DNA from: an uncultured Flavobacteriales bacterium
GTDB lineage: Bacteria; Bacteroidota; Bacteroidia; Flavobacteriales_E; Vicingaceae
Reading direction: 5' to 3'
Assembly: GCA_905479995.1 (NCBI GenBank)
Contig: CAJQON010000003.1
Span: forward strand, 124,001-188,000
Length of the DNA: 64,000 bases
The stretch's first letter is position 1. Each line of letters begins with the position of its first letter. The translations under genes and the position numbers were made by a program. The notes beneath the pieces were generated by a model. The model was not told the DNA's origin, made no database searches, and was given only the letters and a program-made list of their open reading frames with translations. Shown in pieces: positions 4,450-35,178 of this stretch.

Positions 4450-6215
4450 TGGCAAGAGCTAAAAGAGAAAAAATTTCAAAAGAATCGATGAAAAAAGCGA
4501 TGCGTGTATTCAGGTTTGTAAAACCTTTTAGAATTACGTTTGCTTTTGGTATGCTAGTACTCATTACTTCAAGTGTGGTAATGATGGCTTTTCCTAAAGT
4601 ATTGGGAGATTTAATTGATTCAGCCAACTCGGCTGATGGTACTACTGTAAATGAAACAACCATTCTGTTAATCAGCATTTTCTTGGTTATTGCTATCATG
4701 TCTTTCTTCAGAATTTTTCTATTTGGAGTGGTTACTCAAAAAGCCTTAGCACTATTAAGAACCGAAACATATAAGCACCTTATCTCTTCTCCAATGAGCT
4801 TTTTTTCGAGTAAAAGAGTTGGGGAATTAAGCAGTAGAACAACAACAGACATCGCACTTTTGGAAGAAACATTTTCTACCACTATTGCAGAGATCATCAG
4901 ACAAGTTATTACTATTCCTGTGGCTTTATTCTTTTTAATATTTATATCGCCAAGGTTAACTGTTTTTATGATTTCTGTTATTCCCGTAGTTGCTTTAATT
5001 GGAATTTTCTTTGGGAAGTACATCAAAAAATTATCGAAAAATGCACAAGATGACATTGCCGAATCGAATGGCGTGGTTGATGAAACTTTACACGGAATTG
5101 CAAGTGTAAAAGCTTATGCCAATGAGTTTTTTGAAATAGCTCGATACAAAAAGAGCATCGATAGCTCTGTAAACACATCTATAAAAAATGCCAAGTGGAG
5201 GGGAACTTTTATTGGTTTAATTATGTTTGCTGCCGGTGCAGCCATTGTTTCTATTATATGGTACGGTCTACATATGGTACAAGTTGGTGAAATTTCCATT
5301 GGTGAGTTATTGCAATTTGCAATTTACTCTGCATTGTTAGGCGTTTCTTTTGGAGGTTCTGCAGAATTGTTTGCTAAACTCCAAAAATCGATTGGAGCTA
5401 CTGAACACTTAATGGATATTTTAGAAGAAAGTACTGAGAATGTTTCATTAGAAAAATCTGAACGAATTTCAATAAATGGAAACATTGCTTTTAACAACAT
5501 AAAATTTTCTTACCCTTCTCGTAGAGATATACAGGTTATTAAAGATGTATCTTTTAGTGTAGAAGCAGGTAAACAAATTGCTTTTGTAGGACCATCTGGA
5601 TCAGGCAAAACAACTATTGCAGCTCTATTGTACCGATTCTATAATCCAGAAAGTGGTTCGATAACTATTGATGGAAAAAACATTAACGATTACCAACTTT
5701 CTGAAATTAGAAATGAAATGGCAATGGTTCCACAAGAGGTAATGTTATTTGCTGGTAGTATAAAAGAAAACATAGAATACGGGAAACCTGGGGCTACTGA
5801 AGAAGAGATTTTTGAAGCAGCTAAACAGGCTAACGCTTTAGAGTTTATAGAAAGCTTTCCAGAAAAGTTTGAAACCTTGGTTGGCGATAGAGGAATACAA
5901 TTGTCTGGTGGTCAGAAACAAAGGATTGCCATTGCGAGAGCCATCCTAAAGAACCCATCCATTTTAGTGTTAGACGAAGCAACAAGTGCTTTAGATTCTG
6001 AAAGTGAAAGATTGGTACAAGAGGCTTTAGATCGTTTAATGAAAGGTAGAACTTCTTTGGTTATTGCACACCGATTATCTACCATTAAAAATGCGGACAA
6101 CATTATTGTGTTAGACCATGGTAAGATTAAAGAGACTGGAACTCATTCTGAGTTAATCCAATTAGAAAATGGAATTTACAAGAATTTGAGCACACTGCAG
6201 CTGACTGCGGTTTAA
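4449..6215 (+). CDS. ABC exporter, fused membrane and ATPase domains
   Basis: 588 aa half-size type IV exporter of the MsbA/ABCB group. The six-helix membrane domain covers about residues 25-325 and the nucleotide-binding domain about 345-580. Walker A GPSGSGKTT is near 380, the Q-loop is in MVPQEV, the signature LSGGQKQR is near 484, Walker B ILVLDEA has its catalytic Glu near 508, and the switch His is in IAHRLST. All catalytic positions are canonical, so a homodimer can hydrolyse ATP. Substrate unknown; MsbA-like lipid or drug export are both possible. Translation is coupled to the upstream oxygenase. Confidence 0.92.
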   Translation: MARAKREKISKESMKKAMRVFRFVKPFRITFAFGMLVLITSSVVMMAFPKVLGDLIDSANSADGTTVNETTILLISIFLVIAIMSFFRIFLFGVVTQKALALLRTETYKHLISSPMSFFSSKRVGELSSRTTTDIALLEETFSTTIAEIIRQVITIPVALFFLIFISPRLTVFMISVIPVVALIGIFFGKYIKKLSKNAQDDIAESNGVVDETLHGIASVKAYANEFFEIARYKKSIDSSVNTSIKNAKWRGTFIGLIMFAAGAAIVSIIWYGLHMVQVGEISIGELLQFAIYSALLGVSFGGSAELFAKLQKSIGATEHLMDILEESTENVSLEKSERISINGNIAFNNIKFSYPSRRDIQVIKDVSFSVEAGKQIAFVGPSGSGKTTIAALLYRFYNPESGSITIDGKNINDYQLSEIRNEMAMVPQEVMLFAGSIKENIEYGKPGATEEEIFEAAKQANALEFIESFPEKFETLVGDRGIQLSGGQKQRIAIARAILKNPSILVLDEATSALDSESERLVQEALDRLMKGRTSLVIAHRLSTIKNADNIIVLDHGKIKETGTHSELIQLENGIYKNLSTLQLTAV

Positions 6216-6235
6216 GTTTAAACTATTGTAAAATT

Positions 6236-6541
6236 ATGACAAGTGAAGAAATCAAATCATTAATTGATGAAGAGCTTAGATCTAATCTTAGTTTCTTTAA
6301 TTCTCATAGCCTTAATCTCGAAAAATGCCTAATAGATCCTATACAACAGGATTATGTTGACTCATTTGATGAATCAAAAAGACTAAAATATTGGACTGTT
6401 TTAATTGAATCTGAAGGTGGTTATAGAATTGCATATGACCCTAAAAATAATTGCTACGGTTTAGGAATAGTTACTGATAAAAACGAATTAATGCACATTG
6501 GCAATTATGGAACCTTTATAGAAACCTTAGAAGGAATGTAA
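6236..6541 (+). CDS. conserved hypothetical protein, 101 aa
   Basis: I do not recognise the family with confidence. The protein is soluble and acidic, with an N-terminal helix (SEEIKSLIDEELRSNLSFF) and a C-terminal beta-rich part (YRIAYDPKNNCYGLGIV, then HIGNYGTFIETLEGM). ATG start, 20 nt after the ABC transporter, so it may be the last gene of that unit. A repeat element starts 15 bases beyond its stop. It looks like the small accessory proteins often found near flavobacterial repeats, but there is no evidence for a role. Confidence 0.7.
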   Translation: MTSEEIKSLIDEELRSNLSFFNSHSLNLEKCLIDPIQQDYVDSFDESKRLKYWTVLIESEGGYRIAYDPKNNCYGLGIVTDKNELMHIGNYGTFIETLEGM

Positions 6542-6555
6542 TTCCTGTATAAGTT

Positions 6556-6685
6556 GTCATTCTGAAAGTAGTTTTATTGAAACTTTAGTTTCAGTATAAA
6601 ACAAAATGAAGAATCTATACAAATAGATTCCACACTTCATTTTTCTATCAAATAAATTTGATAGAAAAATATCGTTCTGAATGAC
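6556..6685. repeat. MITE/REP-like repeat, copy A
   Basis: 130-bp element bounded by imperfect terminal inverted repeats GTCATTCTGAA (6556-6566) and TTCTGAATGAC (6675-6685), 10 of 11 matching. Inside are three hairpins: TGAAAC/GTTTCA (6578-6593 region), AATCTAT/ATAGATT (6612-6629 region), and a perfect 14-bp stem at 6640-6653/6656-6669 with a 2-nt loop. No ORF. Its left part aligns with copy B (7409-7501), and it shares motifs with copy C (60206-60399). It could also act as a 3'-end RNA structure for the preceding gene. Confidence 0.72.
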
Positions 6686-6693
6686 AAGAATAC

Positions 6694-6740
6694 TAAACCA
6701 AACTAGCTAATTGCTCTTCTAAAACTTTAATTTTAGCTTC
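6694..6740. repeat. 47-bp duplicate of the valS 3' end
   Basis: Positions 6694-6740 are identical to 7512-7558, which is the last 46-47 bases of valS (minus strand) including most of its stop codon. In both places the copy follows the ATCGTTCTGAATGAC motif of a repeat element by a few bases. The duplicate lies directly beyond the stop of the barrel gene 6744-7295 and codes for nothing itself. It is a direct-repeat remnant of a duplication or insertion at the end of valS. Confidence 0.9.
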
Positions 6741-6743
6741 AAC

Positions 6744-7295
6744 TTATTTCTTCAGCCAAAAGCCAACAGAAAAAGTAAGCATGTTATTTTTTATATCAGA
6801 ACCAGCAGCATCAACACTAGTTAAACCATAATTGTACCGCGCAGAAACATGGATTTTCAAGACATCAATACCAAAGCCAAGTACTGCTGACAAATCAGTA
6901 GGTTCTAATTGATCTTTTACATCAGAGCCTAAAGACTTTGCTCCAACAAGTAGAGAGTATTGCGCTCCAAGCTGGAAGCTGATAATCTTTGCCATATATA
7001 TTTTCATAACGACAGGCATATCAATGTAACAAAGGTTAATTCCTTTAGAATGACCTTTCAGTGAAGCTCCTTTTGTTGAAAACAAAACATCAGCTTCAAA
7101 CCCAAGTTTAACAGGCAGCTTAACCTCCATCATAAAACCTCCATTAAAACCTAGTTTATTATCGGTTCCACTAACATCAGAGCCTCCCAAATTTGAAAGA
7201 TTAACACCTCCTCCTGCACCAAACTTAAATTGTGCATTGGAAATAAAAGGAGTTGATAATAAAAGGAGTATTAAGGTAATTTTAAGGCATTTCAT
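6744..7295 (-). CDS. porin-family outer-membrane beta-barrel protein
   Basis: 183 aa with a clear signal peptide (MKCLKITLILLLLSTPFISNAQ-FKFG) followed by alternating hydrophobic strands (FKFGAGGGVNLSNLGG, GFMMEVKLPVKLGFEADVLFS, IISFQLGAQYSLLVG, LKIHVSARYNYGLTS). It ends in FSVGFWLKK. This is the PorT-like/OMP_b-brl_2 type of small barrel common in Bacteroidota; function unknown. It is flanked by repeat copies A and B and sits inside the segment bracketed by the 47-bp valS-tail direct repeat, so it appears to be a later arrival here. Confidence 0.82.
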   Translation of the reverse strand: MKCLKITLILLLLSTPFISNAQFKFGAGGGVNLSNLGGSDVSGTDNKLGFNGGFMMEVKLPVKLGFEADVLFSTKGASLKGHSKGINLCYIDMPVVMKIYMAKIISFQLGAQYSLLVGAKSLGSDVKDQLEPTDLSAVLGFGIDVLKIHVSARYNYGLTSVDAAGSDIKNNMLTFSVGFWLKK

Positions 7296-7408
7296 GGTTA
7301 TGGTTTTTATTCAAAAATGGGTTAATAAAAGTTAGCTAAACGCCTTCTTCTAATTTTTAGTTTTACTTTTTAAGCAACGCTAAATTACACCTCTATATTA
7401 TGTTGTTA

Positions 7409-7501
7409 TCATTCTGAATGAAGTTTTATTAAAACTCTAAGTTTCTAGCATAAATCTTCAAGCTCAGTATGACAAAGAAGTAAAATATCGTTCTGAATGA
7501 C
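7409..7501. repeat. MITE/REP-like repeat, copy B
   Basis: Left end TCATTCTGAA (7409-7418) and right end TTCTGAATGAC (7491-7501) form the same inverted termini as copy A. The left 45 bases align with copy A (the ..AGTTTTATT.AAACT block). A related CTCAGTATGAC word sits internally at 7462-7472. The right end lies 9 bases from the valS stop codon. Confidence 0.65.
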
Positions 7502-7510
7502 GATTTCGAC

Positions 7511-10138
7511 TTAAACCAAACTAGCTAATTGCTCTTCTAAAACTTTAATTTTAGCTTCTGCATCAGCCTTTTTCTTTTGCTCTACAGCAACAACTTGTTC
7601 TGGTGCACCAGCAACAAAACGTTCGTTAGAAAGCTTTTTATTTACAATATTCAATGATCCTTTGGCGTAATCTAAATCTGCTTTAATTTTTTCTACCTCA
7701 GCTTCAACATCAACATTCCCTTCCATCGGAATAAAATACTCGTTAGATTTAACTACAAAAGAAAAAGCTCCTTCTTCTTTATCATCCACATAAGTTAAAC
7801 CAGAAAGGTTAGTCAGTTTTTTAATTATAGTATCTAAAGAATCATTAATGGCTTCATTCTTCTTTACCATTAAAGCAATTTGATCTTTATTGGCAATGTT
7901 TTTCGATTTACGTAAAGTTCTAATTTCAGCAATTACATTTAACGAGTAATCAAAGTCTTTTAAAAGCGTTTCGTTTACCTCTCCAGCCTTTGGATATTCC
8001 AATAACATAATGGTATCTCCTTCATTTCTGTTTTCCATATTTTGCCATAATTCTTCAGTTACAAAAGGCATAAATGGATGCAATACTTTTAATAGTTTTT
8101 CAAAGTAAGCAATGGTCGTTTTTAATGTAGCAGCATCTATAGGTTTTAAATAAGCTGGCTTAACACACTCTAGATAAGACGAACAGAAGTCATTCCAAAT
8201 TAACTTGTATGTACTCATTAATGAATCAGACAATCTGTATTTAGAAAAGTTATCGTCTATAGAAATTAAGGTTTCACTCAATTTAGAGTCGAACCATTCT
8301 ATGGCAATTTTTGCACTTTCTGGTTGCTCAATACTTTCATCAATATCCCAACCTTTAACCAATCTAAAGGCATTCCAAATTTTAGTAGAAAACTTACTTC
8401 CTTGTTCTAATAAAGATTCGTCAAACAACAAATCGTTACCAGCTGCAGCACAACTCAACATTCCAAAACGAACGCTATCTGCTCCATAAGTATCAATCAA
8501 TCCTAAAGCATCAGGAGAGTTTCCTAATGATTTACTCATTTTTCTACGTTGTTTATCTCTTACCATTCCAGTAAAATAAACATCATTAAAAGGCTTCTCA
8601 TCTTTAAACTCATAACCAGCAAAAACCATACGAGCAACCCAGAAGAAAATAATATCCCAACCAGTTACTAAAACATTTGTTGGGTAATAATAATCGATTT
8701 CAGTTTTGTCTTCTCCAAATCCATCAAAAACAGAAATTGGCCATAACCATGATGAAAACCATGTATCTAATACATCTTCATCTTGTCTTAAATCTGAAGC
8801 TTGTAAATCATTATTTCCAGATTGAACCCTTGCCATTTCCAATGCTTCTTCTTTTGTTTCAGCAATTACATAGTCGTTGGCTTCATTGTAGTAATAAGCA
8901 GGAATTTGTTGTCCCCACCACAACTGACGAGAAATTGGCCATTCTCTAATATTATCTAACCAATGTTGGTATGTGTTTTTATATTTTGATGGGTAAAATT
9001 TAATGTTATCGTTCATTACATTTTCCAATGCAGGCTTAACAATCTCATCCATTTTAACGTACCATTGCAAAGATAATTTAGGCTCTACAACTGTATCTGG
9101 GTTTCTTTCAGAATAACCAACGTTATTCGTTATCTGTTCTTCTTTAATTAAAAGACCTTCTTCTTTTAATAGCTTAGCAACCTTCTTACGAACTACAAAA
9201 CGATCTTCACCAACAAAAACCTGACCGGCTTCACTTATGGTACCATCATCGTTAAATGTATCTATAATTTCTAAGTTATGGCGTTTTCCAATATCATAAT
9301 CATTGGTATCATGAGCAGGAGTTACCTTTAACATTCCTGTTCCAAATTCTAAATCAATGTAATCATCTACAATAATTGGTATCTCACGGTTTACCATAGG
9401 TACAATTACTTTCTTACCATGTAAGTGTGTGTAACGTTCATCTTTTGGGTGCACACAAATTGCAGCATCGCCCATTATCGTTTCAGGTCGAGTTGTTGCG
9501 ATTGTAACATATTCGTCAGAATCTGCTAACTTATAGTTGATGTGGTAAAGTTTAGATTGAACATCTTTACGAATAACCTCTTCGTTAGATAAAGTAGTTT
9601 GCGCCTTTGGATCCCAGTTTACAATTTTCCAATCTTTATAGATGTAGCCTTTTTTATTAAGCTCCACAAAAGATTTAATTACTGCATCCGATAATTTTGG
9701 CTCCATCGTAAACCGAGTTCTATCCCAATCGCAACTTGCACCCAATCTTTTTAATTGTTCTAATATAATTCCTCCATACTTGTCTTTCCATTCAAAAGCA
9801 TGTTCCAAAAACTTCTCTCTGCCTATATCGTGTTTGCTTATTCCTTGTTCTCTAAGTAGGTTCACCACCTTAGATTCTGTTGCAATAGATGCATGGTCTG
9901 TTCCAGGAACCCAACACGCATTTTTACCTTCCATTCTAGCTTTTCTTATCAAAACATCTTGAATGGTATTGTTTAGCATATGTCCCATATGCAATACTCC
10001 TGTAACATTTGGCGGAGGAATAACGATAGTATAAGGCTCTCTTTCATCTGGTTTAGAACTAAAAAAATCATTCTTCATCCAGTAGTCGTACCACTTCTTT
10101 TCTATGTCTGTTGGGCTATATTTGCTATCAATTTCCAT
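7511..10138 (-). CDS. valS: valyl-tRNA synthetase
   Basis: 875 aa class I synthetase charging tRNA-Val. Class I motifs are the HIGH-type sequence HMGHM (in PNVTGVLHMGHML, near residue 48) and RKMSKSLGNS. The editing domain (TTRPETIMGD) lies between them, and the C-terminal end is a coiled-coil arm (EVEKIKADLDYAKG to LEEQLASLV). An open frame extends upstream to 10192, but the ATG at 10138 is preferred: it starts the conserved MEIDSKYSPTDIEKKWYDYW, has a purine-rich stretch before it, and a promoter overlaps the longer version. The last 47 bases are duplicated at 6694-6740. Confidence 0.97.
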   Translation of the reverse strand: MEIDSKYSPTDIEKKWYDYWMKNDFFSSKPDEREPYTIVIPPPNVTGVLHMGHMLNNTIQDVLIRKARMEGKNACWVPGTDHASIATESKVVNLLREQGISKHDIGREKFLEHAFEWKDKYGGIILEQLKRLGASCDWDRTRFTMEPKLSDAVIKSFVELNKKGYIYKDWKIVNWDPKAQTTLSNEEVIRKDVQSKLYHINYKLADSDEYVTIATTRPETIMGDAAICVHPKDERYTHLHGKKVIVPMVNREIPIIVDDYIDLEFGTGMLKVTPAHDTNDYDIGKRHNLEIIDTFNDDGTISEAGQVFVGEDRFVVRKKVAKLLKEEGLLIKEEQITNNVGYSERNPDTVVEPKLSLQWYVKMDEIVKPALENVMNDNIKFYPSKYKNTYQHWLDNIREWPISRQLWWGQQIPAYYYNEANDYVIAETKEEALEMARVQSGNNDLQASDLRQDEDVLDTWFSSWLWPISVFDGFGEDKTEIDYYYPTNVLVTGWDIIFFWVARMVFAGYEFKDEKPFNDVYFTGMVRDKQRRKMSKSLGNSPDALGLIDTYGADSVRFGMLSCAAAGNDLLFDESLLEQGSKFSTKIWNAFRLVKGWDIDESIEQPESAKIAIEWFDSKLSETLISIDDNFSKYRLSDSLMSTYKLIWNDFCSSYLECVKPAYLKPIDAATLKTTIAYFEKLLKVLHPFMPFVTEELWQNMENRNEGDTIMLLEYPKAGEVNETLLKDFDYSLNVIAEIRTLRKSKNIANKDQIALMVKKNEAINDSLDTIIKKLTNLSGLTYVDDKEEGAFSFVVKSNEYFIPMEGNVDVEAEVEKIKADLDYAKGSLNIVNKKLSNERFVAGAPEQVVAVEQKKKADAEAKIKVLEEQLASLV

Positions 10139-26388: not shown

Positions 26389-28653
26389 ATGAAACTATCC
26401 TTCAAAATATACACAACAATTTTCCTGATATCACTTATAAACACTGATTGTTTAGCTCAAATAAATTTTACTCGAAATAGCAACTTAGTCATTTTAAACC
26501 TTGCTGGAGACACTTTAAAAAATCCATGGGCTGGCGGATTTAATTCAGTGCAGTTTTCTGAAGTCGACCTAGATTTAGATGGCATTAAAGATCTTTTTGT
26601 TTTTGACCGAACAGGTAATCGTATTTCTACCTTTATTAATGCAGGTACATCCAACAAAGTAACTTATACATACAATCCAGAATTCATTCAGCATTTCCCA
26701 GAGGTACACGACTGGGTTTTATTAAGGGATTATAATTGTGATGGGAAGATGGATATTTTCACCTATTCATCCGGAGGAATGGCTGCCTATAAAAACACAT
26801 CTTCCTCTCAACTTGAGTTTACGCTCGATACCGCCCTTATTTATTCAGATTTCAACCCTGATGGCGCTCCCAACTTTGTCAATCTTTACATTAGTTCTGC
26901 CGATATACCTGCAATTGACGACATAGACAATGATGGAGATTTAGATATTTTGACTTTTAGCATTACCGGCTCTTACATTGAATACCACAAAAACTTGTCG
27001 ATGGAAAAAAATGGCGATTGCAGTCAGTTAGATTTTCAATTAAACAATAAATGTTGGGGATTTATTAAAGAAAATGCTTCTGGAAATAGTGTTACTTTAT
27101 ATGACACTTGCTCATTTAACGTAAATTCTCCAGAACGAATTAGTGGAGGGAATAAACATGCTGGATCTATGCTTTTTACGCTTGATGTAGACGCTAACAA
27201 CTCTAAAGATTTAGTACTGAGCGATGTATCTTTTAATAATTTTACGCTATTGGTTAATCAAGATGTTACACCAAACCTCACAGCATCTTCTATGGTTTCT
27301 CAGGATTCTTTATTTCCAAAAAACAATAACAGCACCATTGCAATTGACCTCAATATTTTTCCAGCGGGTTTTTACTTGGATGTAAACAATGATAACATTA
27401 AAGATTTAATTGCTGCCCCAAATTGCTACAACGGCTGTAGTAATATTGAAAACACTTGGTACTATAAAAACAATGGACAAGATAACAATCCAGATTTTTC
27501 TTTCGAAAACAATTCCTTTTTACAAGATGGAATGATTGAGGTTGGCGAAGGTGCACACCCAGTATTTTTTGATTATAATGCCGATGGTTTAATGGATATT
27601 ATTGTAGGAAATTATGGCGAACACGATCCATCAGTTGGACCATTATTGTACAGATCTAGTCTTTGGTTATATGAAAACATGGGAACCACTAACAACCCTT
27701 ACTATCAATTGGTCAATAAAGATTATATCGGCATATCTTCTATGAATCTAGATTTAGTTGGCAGCAGGCCAACACTAGGGCTAGCTCCTACTTTTGGAGA
27801 TTTAGATGGTGACAACGATTTAGATTTACTTCTAGGAGATTACAATGGACACATCCATTACTTCACAAATACTGCTGGCGTTGGTAATCCTGCAGCATTT
27901 ACCTTAGTTACTCCCGATTATCTAAACATTGATGTAGGTCAAGAAGCTACTCCTTTTTTATACGACATTGATAAAGACCTTCTAACTGATCTAATTATTG
28001 GAAAATACAACGGCACCTTTTCTTATTATCAAAACAAAGGAACTGCAAGCGCCCCATTATTCACCTTAATAACAGACTCTTTAGGCAAAGCAGTAACCAA
28101 AAGACAATACAACCATAAAGGAAGTAGTGCTCCTATTCTAATAGACAGCAACGGTACAACAATTTTATACTCAGGATCATACAACGGCTATATTTATAAA
28201 TTTGGAAACATAGATGGGAACTTAACAGGAACATTTAGTATTGATAGTTCGTATAACAACATTTGGGAAGGAATTAACTCTTTTGTAGCCATTAAAGACA
28301 TTGGCAATGATGGTTACTTAGATATGCTGGTTGGAAATTATGCTGGAGGAACTGCCTTCTATAAAGGAGATACCACAATCACCATACCTGCATCAGTAAG
28401 CAATTATGGATCTTTAGAGGAACTGTTAATTTACCCCAACCCTACCAATGGAAACTTGTTAATTAATGTGGGTGCAAACAATATAAACAATGCTAAAATT
28501 GAAGTCAGTAGTTTATTAGGCAAATCAATTTTAACCAAAGAAATAACAACGATTCAAACCACCATTAATCTAAGTAATTATGCCAACGGTATTTACTTAA
28601 TTAAATTCTCTAATAATAAAGGGACTAAAACATACAAGGTTATTAAAGAATGA
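26389..28653 (+). CDS. FG-GAP/VCBS repeat protein with T9SS sorting domain, copy 1
   Basis: 754 aa. Signal peptide ends near CLAQ-INFT. The body is a series of Asp-rich Ca2+-binding loops of FG-GAP/VCBS type (DLDLDGIKDLFVFD near 63-76, DIDNDGDLDIL, DYNADGLMDIIVGN, DLDGDNDLDLLLGDYNG), which predict a beta-propeller. The last 75 residues (YPNPTNGNLLINVG ... LSNYANGIYLIKFSN ... TYKVIKE) are a type A T9SS C-terminal sorting domain, so the protein is released or anchored on the cell surface. The role is probably adhesion or binding. The end overlaps the start of a paralog by 4 bases (ATGA). Confidence 0.92.
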   Translation: MKLSFKIYTTIFLISLINTDCLAQINFTRNSNLVILNLAGDTLKNPWAGGFNSVQFSEVDLDLDGIKDLFVFDRTGNRISTFINAGTSNKVTYTYNPEFIQHFPEVHDWVLLRDYNCDGKMDIFTYSSGGMAAYKNTSSSQLEFTLDTALIYSDFNPDGAPNFVNLYISSADIPAIDDIDNDGDLDILTFSITGSYIEYHKNLSMEKNGDCSQLDFQLNNKCWGFIKENASGNSVTLYDTCSFNVNSPERISGGNKHAGSMLFTLDVDANNSKDLVLSDVSFNNFTLLVNQDVTPNLTASSMVSQDSLFPKNNNSTIAIDLNIFPAGFYLDVNNDNIKDLIAAPNCYNGCSNIENTWYYKNNGQDNNPDFSFENNSFLQDGMIEVGEGAHPVFFDYNADGLMDIIVGNYGEHDPSVGPLLYRSSLWLYENMGTTNNPYYQLVNKDYIGISSMNLDLVGSRPTLGLAPTFGDLDGDNDLDLLLGDYNGHIHYFTNTAGVGNPAAFTLVTPDYLNIDVGQEATPFLYDIDKDLLTDLIIGKYNGTFSYYQNKGTASAPLFTLITDSLGKAVTKRQYNHKGSSAPILIDSNGTTILYSGSYNGYIYKFGNIDGNLTGTFSIDSSYNNIWEGINSFVAIKDIGNDGYLDMLVGNYAGGTAFYKGDTTITIPASVSNYGSLEELLIYPNPTNGNLLINVGANNINNAKIEVSSLLGKSILTKEITTIQTTINLSNYANGIYLIKFSNNKGTKTYKVIKE

Positions 28654-30911
28654 AAAAACAATTTTCCATAGCACTGCTCTTTTTTCTTGCAACATTATCT
28701 GTCGCTTACAGTCAAAAAGATTTTACACGAAAAGACAACATTACTGTTTTGAGTATTTCAGGTGATACTCTTAAAAACCCTTGGGCCGGAGGATTTAATT
28801 CTGTTCAATTTTCTGAAATTGACCTTGATTTAGACGGCACCATGGATTTGTTTGTTTTTGACAGAAGTGGCAATAGAATTTCTACTTTTATTAATGCAGG
28901 AACACCAAATAAGGTTACTTATAAACATGCTCCAGAATACGCAAAAATGTTCCCAGATTTAGCAGATTGGGTATTGCTACGCGATTACAACTGCGATGGA
29001 AAAATGGATATATTCACCACTTTTCCAGGCGGAATGACAGTCCACAAAAATACCTCTACAGCTTCACTCAGCTTTGCTCCAAACATTGGTTTATTGAAAT
29101 CAGACTTAAACCCCAATGGTCCAAATCCTAACAAGTTAAACATATACAATGCCCGAAGTAACCTTCCTGCAATTGACGATATTGATGGTGATGGTGATTT
29201 AGACATTTTAGTTATTGATCAATTTGGGTTTAGTATAAACTACCACAAAAACTTAACTATGGAAAGAAATAGCACTTGTGATAGCCTTGACTTTCAGTTA
29301 AGAAACAAATGCTGGGGATTTTTAAAAATCGGTAAAGCAACAAGCTCTTTCACCCTTTTTGATACTTGTAGTTTTAACATCAATTCTCCTGAAGACATTA
29401 CTCCAATTCCACATTTAGATGAAGGAATTTCATTACTAACCTTAGATGTAGATGCAAATGGCACCAAAGATTTAGTAGTGAGCAATTACAACAAAAAAAA
29501 CCTCAACCTACTCATCAACAATGATCAAACACCTACCAGAGTTGCGTCATCATTAATAACAAGAGATTCCATATTCCCACAAAACAACCAGACTACTAGT
29601 GCTTTAAAGCTTGATATTTTCCCAGCAGGATTTTATTTGGACGTAAACAATGACAATGTGAAAGATTTAATTTCTGCCCCCAACTACCCTTTTGGTTGCG
29701 AGGATTTAGACAATGTTTGGCATTACACCAATACTGGAACAGACAATAATCCTGTATTTGAATATGTTGAAAATGCTTTTATTCAAGATGGAATGATAGA
29801 GGTTGGTGAAGGTGCTCACCCGGTATTTTTTGACTACAATGCCGATGGATTAATGGACATTATTATTGGTAACCATGGAGTTTATGACACCAGTAAAACT
29901 AGTCCAGTTTTATACAACGCAAGCCTATGGCTGTACGAAAACATTGGAACAGCAACTACTCCTGCTTTTCAATTGGTAAACAAAGACTATGCAGGATTGC
30001 AAGCCTTAAAGTTAAATGTTGATTCTAATCGAATAACACTTGGTTTAAAACCAACTTTTGGTGATTTAGATGGCGACAATGATCTTGACATGATTGTGGG
30101 CGATTACAATGGATACTTACATTATTTCGAAAATTCTGCTGGACCATCCAATCCTGCAGTCTTCACCTTATCTCAAGCAAAGTATCAAAACATTTATGTA
30201 AAAAGCAATGCCGCTCCTTTATTGTATGATTTAAATAAAGACAATTTATTAGACTTAGTGATTGGAAATATAGATGGTACATTTCATTTTTATAAAAACA
30301 TTGGGTCATCAGCCCTAGCAAACTTCTCATTTGTTACCGATTCTTTAGGTAAAGTGGCAACAACTAGGCAATACCAATACCAAGGAAACAGCTGCCCTGT
30401 AATAATTGACAGTAGCGGAACTACCATATTGTACTCTGGTGCAAAAGACGGATATATTTATAAGTATACGAACTTAGACGGAAATTTAACAGGCACGTTT
30501 AATGCAGATAGCGCCTATCATAACATTTGGGAAGGAGCAAATTCTTATATATCTCTACATGATGTGAGTAATGATGGATTATTAGACCTGCTTGTAGGAA
30601 ACTTAAGTGGTGGTGTTGCCTATTTTGCTGGAGATTCCTTAACCGTTGGCATAAAAAAACCGCTTAAGCAACTCAATAACATCAAAATTTACCCTAACCC
30701 TACCTCTAAAAAAATTACCATTGATTTTGGAAGTAACTCTTTGACAAATGCAAGCATACAATTAATGAGTATTACTGGAAAAACATTACTTGACACTAAA
30801 GTGAACTCTACAAAAACCAGTCTACCAATGGGAGCTTACGCAAAAGGGATATACCTATTAAGGTTAAGCAACACTTCCGGAAATGCTACTTTTAAAATAG
30901 TAAGGGAATAA
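28650..30911 (+). CDS. FG-GAP/VCBS repeat protein with T9SS sorting domain, copy 2
   Basis: 753 aa paralog of the preceding gene, collinear over its whole length. Both carry GDTLKNPWAGGFNSVQFSE, DWVLLRDYNCDGKMDIF, and the EVGEGAHPVFFDYNADGLMDII block. Signal peptide ends near SVAYSQ; the C-terminal sorting domain is YPNPTSKKITIDFG ... AKGIYLLRLSN ... TFKIVRE. It shares the propeller/surface-exposure interpretation. The gene starts with the ATG in the ATGA overlap and is translated from the same mRNA. It converges on the retropepsin-like gene 2 bases away. Confidence 0.92.
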   Translation: MKKQFSIALLFFLATLSVAYSQKDFTRKDNITVLSISGDTLKNPWAGGFNSVQFSEIDLDLDGTMDLFVFDRSGNRISTFINAGTPNKVTYKHAPEYAKMFPDLADWVLLRDYNCDGKMDIFTTFPGGMTVHKNTSTASLSFAPNIGLLKSDLNPNGPNPNKLNIYNARSNLPAIDDIDGDGDLDILVIDQFGFSINYHKNLTMERNSTCDSLDFQLRNKCWGFLKIGKATSSFTLFDTCSFNINSPEDITPIPHLDEGISLLTLDVDANGTKDLVVSNYNKKNLNLLINNDQTPTRVASSLITRDSIFPQNNQTTSALKLDIFPAGFYLDVNNDNVKDLISAPNYPFGCEDLDNVWHYTNTGTDNNPVFEYVENAFIQDGMIEVGEGAHPVFFDYNADGLMDIIIGNHGVYDTSKTSPVLYNASLWLYENIGTATTPAFQLVNKDYAGLQALKLNVDSNRITLGLKPTFGDLDGDNDLDMIVGDYNGYLHYFENSAGPSNPAVFTLSQAKYQNIYVKSNAAPLLYDLNKDNLLDLVIGNIDGTFHFYKNIGSSALANFSFVTDSLGKVATTRQYQYQGNSCPVIIDSSGTTILYSGAKDGYIYKYTNLDGNLTGTFNADSAYHNIWEGANSYISLHDVSNDGLLDLLVGNLSGGVAYFAGDSLTVGIKKPLKQLNNIKIYPNPTSKKITIDFGSNSLTNASIQLMSITGKTLLDTKVNSTKTSLPMGAYAKGIYLLRLSNTSGNATFKIVRE

Positions 30912-32518: not shown

Positions 32519-33748
32519 ATGAAAGATCTATTAGATAAATTCGAAAATAAAACTCCTGAAATTGTATTTGAATGGAATGATGCAGAAACAGAAGCCAAAG
32601 GATGGGTTGTAATTAACTCATTAAGAGGTGGTGCTGCAGGTGGTGGAACTCGAATGAGAGTAGGATTAGACAAAAGAGAGGTAGAATCTTTAGCCAAAAC
32701 TATGGAAGTTAAGTTTACCGTTGCCGGACCAGCTATTGGTGGTGCAAAATCGGGGATTAACTTTGATCCGAACGATCCAAGAAAAAAAGGTGTGCTAAAA
32801 AGATGGTATGCTGCAGTTACTCCATTGTTAAAACATTATTATGGAACAGGTGGAGATTTAAATGTAGACGAGATTCATGAGGTAATTCCTATGACTGAAG
32901 ATTGTGGTGTTTGGCATCCTCAAGAAGGAGTGTTTAACGGCCACTTCCAGCCAAGAGAAGCTCAAAAAATTAACCGTATTGGACAACTAAGACAAGGGGT
33001 TTTAAAGGTTATTGAAAATACAAAATACACTCCGGCAGCAGAAAACAAGTATGTTGTAGCTGATATGATTACTGGTTATGGTGTTGCCGAATCGGTAAAA
33101 CATTACTATGATATTTATGGTGGTAGTGTTAAAGGAAAAAAAGTAATTGTTCAAGGTTGGGGAAATGTAGGTTCTGCTGGAGCTTATTATTTGGCACAAG
33201 ACGGAGCAATTATTGTTGGAATTATTGACCGTGTAGGCGGGTTAATTAAAGAAGATGGTTTTTCGCTAGAAGAGATTAGAGCTTTATTTTTAGCCAAAGA
33301 AGGTAATAAGTTAGTGGCCGACAATATGTTGAGCTACGATGAGGTAAACAGTAAAATTTGGGATTTAAATGCCGAGGTATTTATTCCTTGTGCTGCATCA
33401 CGTTTAATTACGCAAGACCAAGTAGACCGAATGATTAGCGCAGGAATGGAAGTAATTGCTGCAGGAGCAAATGTTCCTTTTGCAGATCCAGAAATTTTCT
33501 TTGGTGCTATTGCAGATTATGCTGACAACAAAATTAGTATTGTTCCTGATTTTATTTCAAACTGTGGTATGGCAAGAGTATTTGCTTACTTAATGAGTAA
33601 TGATTTGGATGCAATTGATGATGAAGCAATCTTCTTAGATACTTCTAATATTATTAGAGAAGCATTAAAAAAATCGCACGCAAAAAACAGTAGCAAACAG
33701 CAAATTGCTAAAACCGCTTTCGAAATTGCATTGAATCAATTGGTTTAA
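32519..33748 (+). CDS. Glu/Leu/Phe/Val dehydrogenase family enzyme
   Basis: 409 aa NAD(P)-dependent amino-acid dehydrogenase. The dimerisation/catalytic domain holds KFTVAGPAIGGAKSGI, where the catalytic and substrate lysines lie, and HYYGTGGDLNVDEI. The Rossmann domain holds QGWGNVGSAGAYYL near 215. Length and spacing resemble glutamate dehydrogenase-type proteins more than the 360-aa leucine dehydrogenase found 3 kb away. The substrate cannot be fixed from sequence alone; glutamate/2-oxoglutarate is most likely. Confidence 0.88.
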   Translation: MKDLLDKFENKTPEIVFEWNDAETEAKGWVVINSLRGGAAGGGTRMRVGLDKREVESLAKTMEVKFTVAGPAIGGAKSGINFDPNDPRKKGVLKRWYAAVTPLLKHYYGTGGDLNVDEIHEVIPMTEDCGVWHPQEGVFNGHFQPREAQKINRIGQLRQGVLKVIENTKYTPAAENKYVVADMITGYGVAESVKHYYDIYGGSVKGKKVIVQGWGNVGSAGAYYLAQDGAIIVGIIDRVGGLIKEDGFSLEEIRALFLAKEGNKLVADNMLSYDEVNSKIWDLNAEVFIPCAASRLITQDQVDRMISAGMEVIAAGANVPFADPEIFFGAIADYADNKISIVPDFISNCGMARVFAYLMSNDLDAIDDEAIFLDTSNIIREALKKSHAKNSSKQQIAKTAFEIALNQLV

Positions 33749-33789: not shown

Positions 33790-34788
33790 ATGGAATTATT
33801 TATTGTACTTGTATTTGTAATTGGCTACCTAGCAATAACGTTAGAGCACAGTCTTAAAATTGATAAACTTGTACCAGCTTTATTAATGATGGCTCTGGCC
33901 TGGGCTGGAGTTGCTTTTGGCATTGACGGCTTTACAGGTTGGTTTGATTCGCATTTAAGCCAGATGTTAGACGGAACCAACGGAACGGTTGATTTTGCTA
34001 CTCAAGGACACGAGGAAAGACTACACATTTTAGAAGGTACATTGTTGCACCACTTTGGTAAAACATGTGAGATTTTAATTTTCTTGGTAGGTGCAATGAC
34101 TATTGTTGAAATTATTGATCATTTCAATGGATTCTCTACTATAAAGAGCTTTATTAAAACAAAAAAGAAACGGGTATTACTATGGATAGTAGCAATCTTA
34201 GCATTTATATTATCTGCTATTATAGATAACTTAACGGCAACTATTGTATTGATTACTATTCTCAGAAAATTAGTTCCTGAAAACAAAGACAGAATTTGGT
34301 TTGCTGGTCTAATTATTATTGCTGCCAATGCTGGTGGTGCATGGTCACCAATTGGAGATGTAACAACTACAATGCTTTGGATGGGTAAAAAAGTTAGTGC
34401 TATGGCATTAATTCAATACTTAGTTATACCTTCATTAGTATGTATGCTTATACCAACTATCATAGCGAGTTTTTTACCCGCATTTAAAGGTAACTTTGAG
34501 CCAAGCACAGATGACGAGGAAACAAATAAACATGGAGCTTTAATGCTGTATTTAGGCTTAGGTTTAATTGTATTTGTACCTATTTTTAAAACGGTTACTC
34601 ACCTACCTCCATATGTAGGTATGATGTTATCTTTATCTTTAGTAGCCATGGTTGCTGAAATAATTAGTGCGAGACAGTTTAGTTTGACAAGCGTAGAAGA
34701 TGCAGAAGAAGACCATGGAGCACATGGATCAAGCCCAACATTTAATGCCTTGGCAAAAATTGAAATGCCTTCTATCTTATTCTTTTAA
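33790..34788 (+). CDS. nhaD: NhaD Na+/H+ antiporter, N-terminal part (332 aa)
   Basis: First 332 residues of an NhaD-type sodium:proton antiporter (CitMHS/ArsB-NhaD superfamily) with about eight membrane segments; ILSAIIDNLTATIVLITILRK and GGAWSPIGDVTTTMLW are the conserved ion-path motifs. The frame stops at TAA 34786-34788, in the middle of a membrane helix (KIEMPSILFF-stop-GILM). The continuation lies in the same frame straight after the stop, where relatives have Leu. As a separate product it would lack the last quarter of the transporter, including the second NVPL motif. Confidence 0.85.
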   Translation: MELFIVLVFVIGYLAITLEHSLKIDKLVPALLMMALAWAGVAFGIDGFTGWFDSHLSQMLDGTNGTVDFATQGHEERLHILEGTLLHHFGKTCEILIFLVGAMTIVEIIDHFNGFSTIKSFIKTKKKRVLLWIVAILAFILSAIIDNLTATIVLITILRKLVPENKDRIWFAGLIIIAANAGGAWSPIGDVTTTMLWMGKKVSAMALIQYLVIPSLVCMLIPTIIASFLPAFKGNFEPSTDDEETNKHGALMLYLGLGLIVFVPIFKTVTHLPPYVGMMLSLSLVAMVAEIISARQFSLTSVEDAEEDHGAHGSSPTFNALAKIEMPSILFF

Positions 34789-34797
34789 GGAATATTA

Positions 34798-35178
34798 ATG
34801 ACGGTAGCTGCATTAGAATCTTTAGGTATGATTTTCACCTTTGGACAAGACGTAAGAGCTTCTATGGATTTAGATGTTTTTGTTATGTTAATGGGAGCAG
34901 GATCTGCTGTTATTGATAATGTACCTTTAGTTGCAGCTAGTATGGGAATGTTTGATCCTGCAACTTTTGCTATGGACAATTCTACTTGGCACTTTATTGC
35001 TTACTCTGCCGGTACAGGTGGTAGTATGTTAATTATTGGATCTGCTGCTGGTGTAGTTGCCATGGGAATGGAAAAGATTTCTTTCTTCTGGTACTTAAAG
35101 AAAATTGCTTGGTTAGCATTAATTGGTTTTGTTGCTGGTGCATTAGTATTTATGGCCATGAGAGGCATGATGATGTAA
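34798..35178 (+). CDS. nhaD: NhaD Na+/H+ antiporter, C-terminal part (126 aa)
   Basis: Remaining 126 residues of the antiporter from the ATG 9 bases after the internal stop: MTVAALESLGMIFTFGQ, then GAGSAVIDNVPLVAAS (the second ion-binding half motif), SAGTGGSMLIIGSAAG and a last membrane helix. AAGGAAT before the ATG could allow re-initiation, giving a two-piece transporter, but the break falls inside a membrane helix. A strong terminator follows. Confidence 0.75.
   Translation: MTVAALESLGMIFTFGQDVRASMDLDVFVMLMGAGSAVIDNVPLVAASMGMFDPATFAMDNSTWHFIAYSAGTGGSMLIIGSAAGVVAMGMEKISFFWYLKKIAWLALIGFVAGALVFMAMRGMMM

Follow-up and report, generated by a model that had tools for sequence, protein, structure and literature searches.

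The NhaD Na+/H+ antiporters constitute family TC 2.A.62 of the IT superfamily. NhaB carries aspartates in both of its halves, Asp146 and Asp404, which are essential (PMC9408914), and the same paper cites an earlier publication for the likeness of NhaD1 to VcINDY. A Vibrio cholerae strain lacking nhaA, nhaB, and nhaD still survives high Na+, a capacity credited to the Na+-pumping NQR (PMC9408914). The locus considered here lies in a 64,000-nucleotide stretch of DNA from an uncultured Flavobacteriales bacterium (the window), which is part of contig 3 (193.5 kb) of a draft assembly with 59 contigs and 98% completeness. It holds an nhaD gene whose reading frame is interrupted by one stop codon. 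Probably, a single base of an otherwise intact nhaD mutated very recently to create the stop, and the sampled population would be either fixed for this nonsense allele or polymorphic for it.

Translation of positions 33790-35178 of the forward strand gives 332 residues, an in-frame TAA, and 129 further residues before the gene's own stop, a TAA at 35176-35178; the frame is open save for the one premature stop (Table 1). Because the two pieces cover adjoining stretches of TIGR00775, the stop corresponds to a single profile position and no frameshift is present. The stretch from 34789 to 35175 by itself matches this model with 108 bits. With the stop replaced by X, the full translation reaches 167.3 bits for NF038006 (NhaD_1; cut-off 80) and matches TIGR00775 with an E-value of 8e-101, under the curated cut-off of 577.1 bits; since an intact relative is likewise under this cut-off (343.6 vs. 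577.1 bits), the Flavobacteriales branch of NhaD lies far from the model's core set. The initial annotation had described an NhaD frame broken by a single in-frame TAA with NhaD sequence on both sides, and the translation and the NCBIfam profile matches agree on this description. NhaD models recognize each piece as well as the frame read through the stop, in keeping with the rest of the family; the difference is that the frame, uninterrupted in NhaD proper, is interrupted here after residue 332.

Table 1. Coordinates of the interrupted nhaD gene and its upstream neighbor in the window.
Feature	Coordinates	Strand	Remarks
Glutamate-dehydrogenase-like (gdh-like) gene, directly upstream of nhaD	32519..33748	+	neighbors nhaD in relatives too
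NhaD N-terminal piece, 332 aa, ends at premature TAA	33790..34788	+	TIGR00775 positions 49-291; NF038006 115 bits (cut-off 80); IIDNLTAT motif
Premature in-frame TAA	34786..34788	+	relatives: Leu (three: Phe)
NhaD C-terminal piece from first post-stop ATG, 126 aa	34798..35178	+	TIGR00775 positions 293-414; VIDNVPLVAA motif

Each half of NhaD bears an Asp-Asn motif, IIDNLTAT near residue 145 and VIDNVPLVAA near residue 375, and the D-N pairs of both are invariant across 34 relatives, making them candidates for a role in ion binding by analogy with other members of the IT superfamily. A structure was predicted with AlphaFold2 from the intact protein of a relative (G005) together with 33 further relatives (mean pLDDT 81). 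Its top Foldseek matches were transporters of the IT type (VcINDY, Pho90, and ArsB), while a sequence search of the PDB returned no match. Leu 327 of the G005 protein, the equivalent of the stop, falls within a predicted helix spanning residues 320-338, in support of the earlier proposal that the break lies inside a membrane helix. Ribosomes would accordingly be predicted to stop after residue 332, within the membrane helix that opens the C-terminal half of the transporter, and the truncated protein would lack the second Asp-Asn motif. The IIDN motif is upstream of the stop and VIDN downstream of it, such that neither piece holds both. As NhaB needs aspartates in both halves, the truncated NhaD is expected by analogy to be inactive, and we infer that activity has very probably been lost.

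Comparison with relatives, which are mostly uncultured Flavobacteriales and include Vicingaceae and Crocinitomicaceae, revealed leucine at the site of the stop in all 79 readable loci from named database sequences, with TTA as the commonest codon (one further named contig stops short of the site and is not among the 79). In the aligned loci from other relatives' genomes the residue is also leucine, save for three with phenylalanine, and the original statement that relatives have leucine at this position therefore holds for the named loci and needs amending for these three. Of 46 same-family genomes searched, 43 had NhaD, and only the window genome carried a premature stop in it. A TAA flagged in another genome (G068) proved to be the natural end of the gene, an apparent deletion in the middle of nhaD in the nearest relative (G003) was a gap of 100 N in the contig, and a locus suspected of being a broken gene (L145; PF00999, one TAA) matched only weakly, being a different membrane protein whose frame begins past that stop. 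Separately, a frameshift near residue 370 was observed in the nhaD of a named Bacteroidia draft (L093, positions 6001-7800; JAUILH010000025.1); according to its name, the contig has a coverage of about 1, and the frameshift is probably a low-coverage assembly error.

The sequence on either side of the stop bears on the age of the lesion. Measured against G003, dN comes to about 0.05 both before and after the stop and dS exceeds 1, which indicates strong purifying selection on the two sides. An alignment of 36 sequences contained 204 columns that were fully invariant, and at otherwise invariant columns the stop is the only private change of the window gene, whereas some intact relatives carry up to seven such changes; the remainder of the protein, therefore, shows no decay. 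These sequence comparisons indicate that normal selection acted on nhaD up to the very recent past or continues to act on it. An old, decaying pseudogene was rejected as an explanation, given that the invariant columns are undamaged apart from the stop. Undecayed flanks are consistent with a mutation that arose very recently, with an allele still segregating, or with an error. A single premature stop with an undecayed remainder in one genome alone is what a recent nonsense pseudogene displays, with no difference from that class seen. The initial annotation had listed loss of function, readthrough, a polymorphic site, and sequencing error without ranking them; the relatives point to a very recent event, either an allele or an error, and the analysis yielded nothing positive for readthrough.

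The main rival is that the stop is an artefact of the draft, by error in consensus or assembly, and that nhaD is intact in the living cell. The undecayed state of the rest of the gene is compatible with this explanation, the assembly is a draft in 59 contigs, and another draft (L093) has a frameshift in nhaD that resembles an error of this kind. To gauge the quality of the consensus, 433 kb of the genome (contig 3, most of contig 15, and part of contig 19; about 14% of the genome, with 249 scored frames) were scanned for stops with strong coding signal both before and after them in one frame. Seven candidate breaks were found, of which only that in nhaD was a clear in-frame break; the other six, judged by eye from their sequences, look like adjoining genes or weak stretches and not like broken genes. 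The absence of any other clear in-frame break in the 433 kb argues that the consensus is not generally poor, and the stop is found in a contig of 193.5 kb in which the tested genes adjoining nhaD are full-length in comparison with relatives. Error is consequently considered unlikely, albeit to be taken seriously, and we infer that the stop is probably present in living DNA.

A functional two-piece NhaD would require termination at the stop, restart within the helix at the ATG at 34798, and assembly of the two products. As had been pointed out initially, this ATG, the first past the premature TAA, is only 9 bases downstream; it is preceded by AAGGAATATTA, which includes AAGGA, and all conserved residues are retained between the two pieces. 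Bacterial ribosomes are known to restart after terminating at a nearby stop (PMC6728339), and a C-terminal piece of NhaD could therefore be made. However, PMC9976891 describes the ribosomes of Bacteroidia as not recognizing Shine-Dalgarno sequences, in which case AAGGA is unlikely to be of help, and the break falls in a predicted helix rather than a loop, leaving the restarted piece without the first part of this helix. Furthermore, a split arrangement was looked for in relatives and found in none, and a stable two-gene nhaD in the clade was rejected on these grounds. A working pair formed by restart is possible in principle and, on balance, very unlikely.

Readthrough of the TAA to give full-length NhaD would account for conservation in one frame on either side of the stop. 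Against it, TAA closes 177 of the 249 strongly coding frames in the 433 kb scanned, and reassignment of TAA to sense was rejected because it is the main terminator. No suppressor tRNA that reads TAA was present among the tRNA genes found, a list that is without several expected isotypes, and RNA structure around and after the stop was no greater than in shuffled sequences (z 0.92). Readthrough is accordingly the least probable of the explanations weighed, and a recent nonsense allele remains the preferred one.

In each of the 13 loci compared (L032, L036-L039, L041, L043, L044, L047, L048, L054, L064, and L072), which represent several Flavobacteriales groups, the gdh-like gene immediately precedes nhaD, as it does in the window, and same-genus loci have malate-dehydrogenase-like and aspartic-protease-like genes beyond it in conserved order. 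This conserved pairing perhaps reflects a link between Na+/H+ exchange and the balance of ammonium or pH. In two same-genus drafts, G010 and G011 (83% and 90% complete), nhaD was not found and the gdh-like gene gave weak matches only; the block of both genes may be dispensable within the genus, as far as two incomplete drafts can indicate. Elsewhere in the window, two adjacent and similar genes of about 750 aa each (26389-28653 and 28650-30911) are a tandem duplication, and their products resemble secreted proteins that are rich in repeats and carry a T9SS-type sorting domain at the C terminus.

Loss of NhaD had at first been considered physiologically notable for a presumably marine cell. The gene is present in one copy, the sole NhaD match in the genome, and a second copy that might serve as a backup was sought and rejected. 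Other sodium-export systems are encoded in the genome, namely an intact NhaC that scores above the TIGR00931 cut-off, a CPA-type exchanger with an open frame of 429 aa, and an NQR, in which an NqrB-type gene adjoins nqrA; NhaA (PF06965) and MnhB were not found in it. Retention of NhaC, the CPA-type exchanger, and NQR would make loss of NhaD tolerable, and these systems, together with the two same-genus drafts in which nhaD was not detected, weaken the claim of physiological importance. The stop in nhaD has an ordinary explanation and prompts no new line of inquiry into either transport or translation. If it is real, it would be a small example of a lineage that has very recently lost a salt antiporter while retaining other routes of Na+ export, and would show NhaD to be dispensable there.
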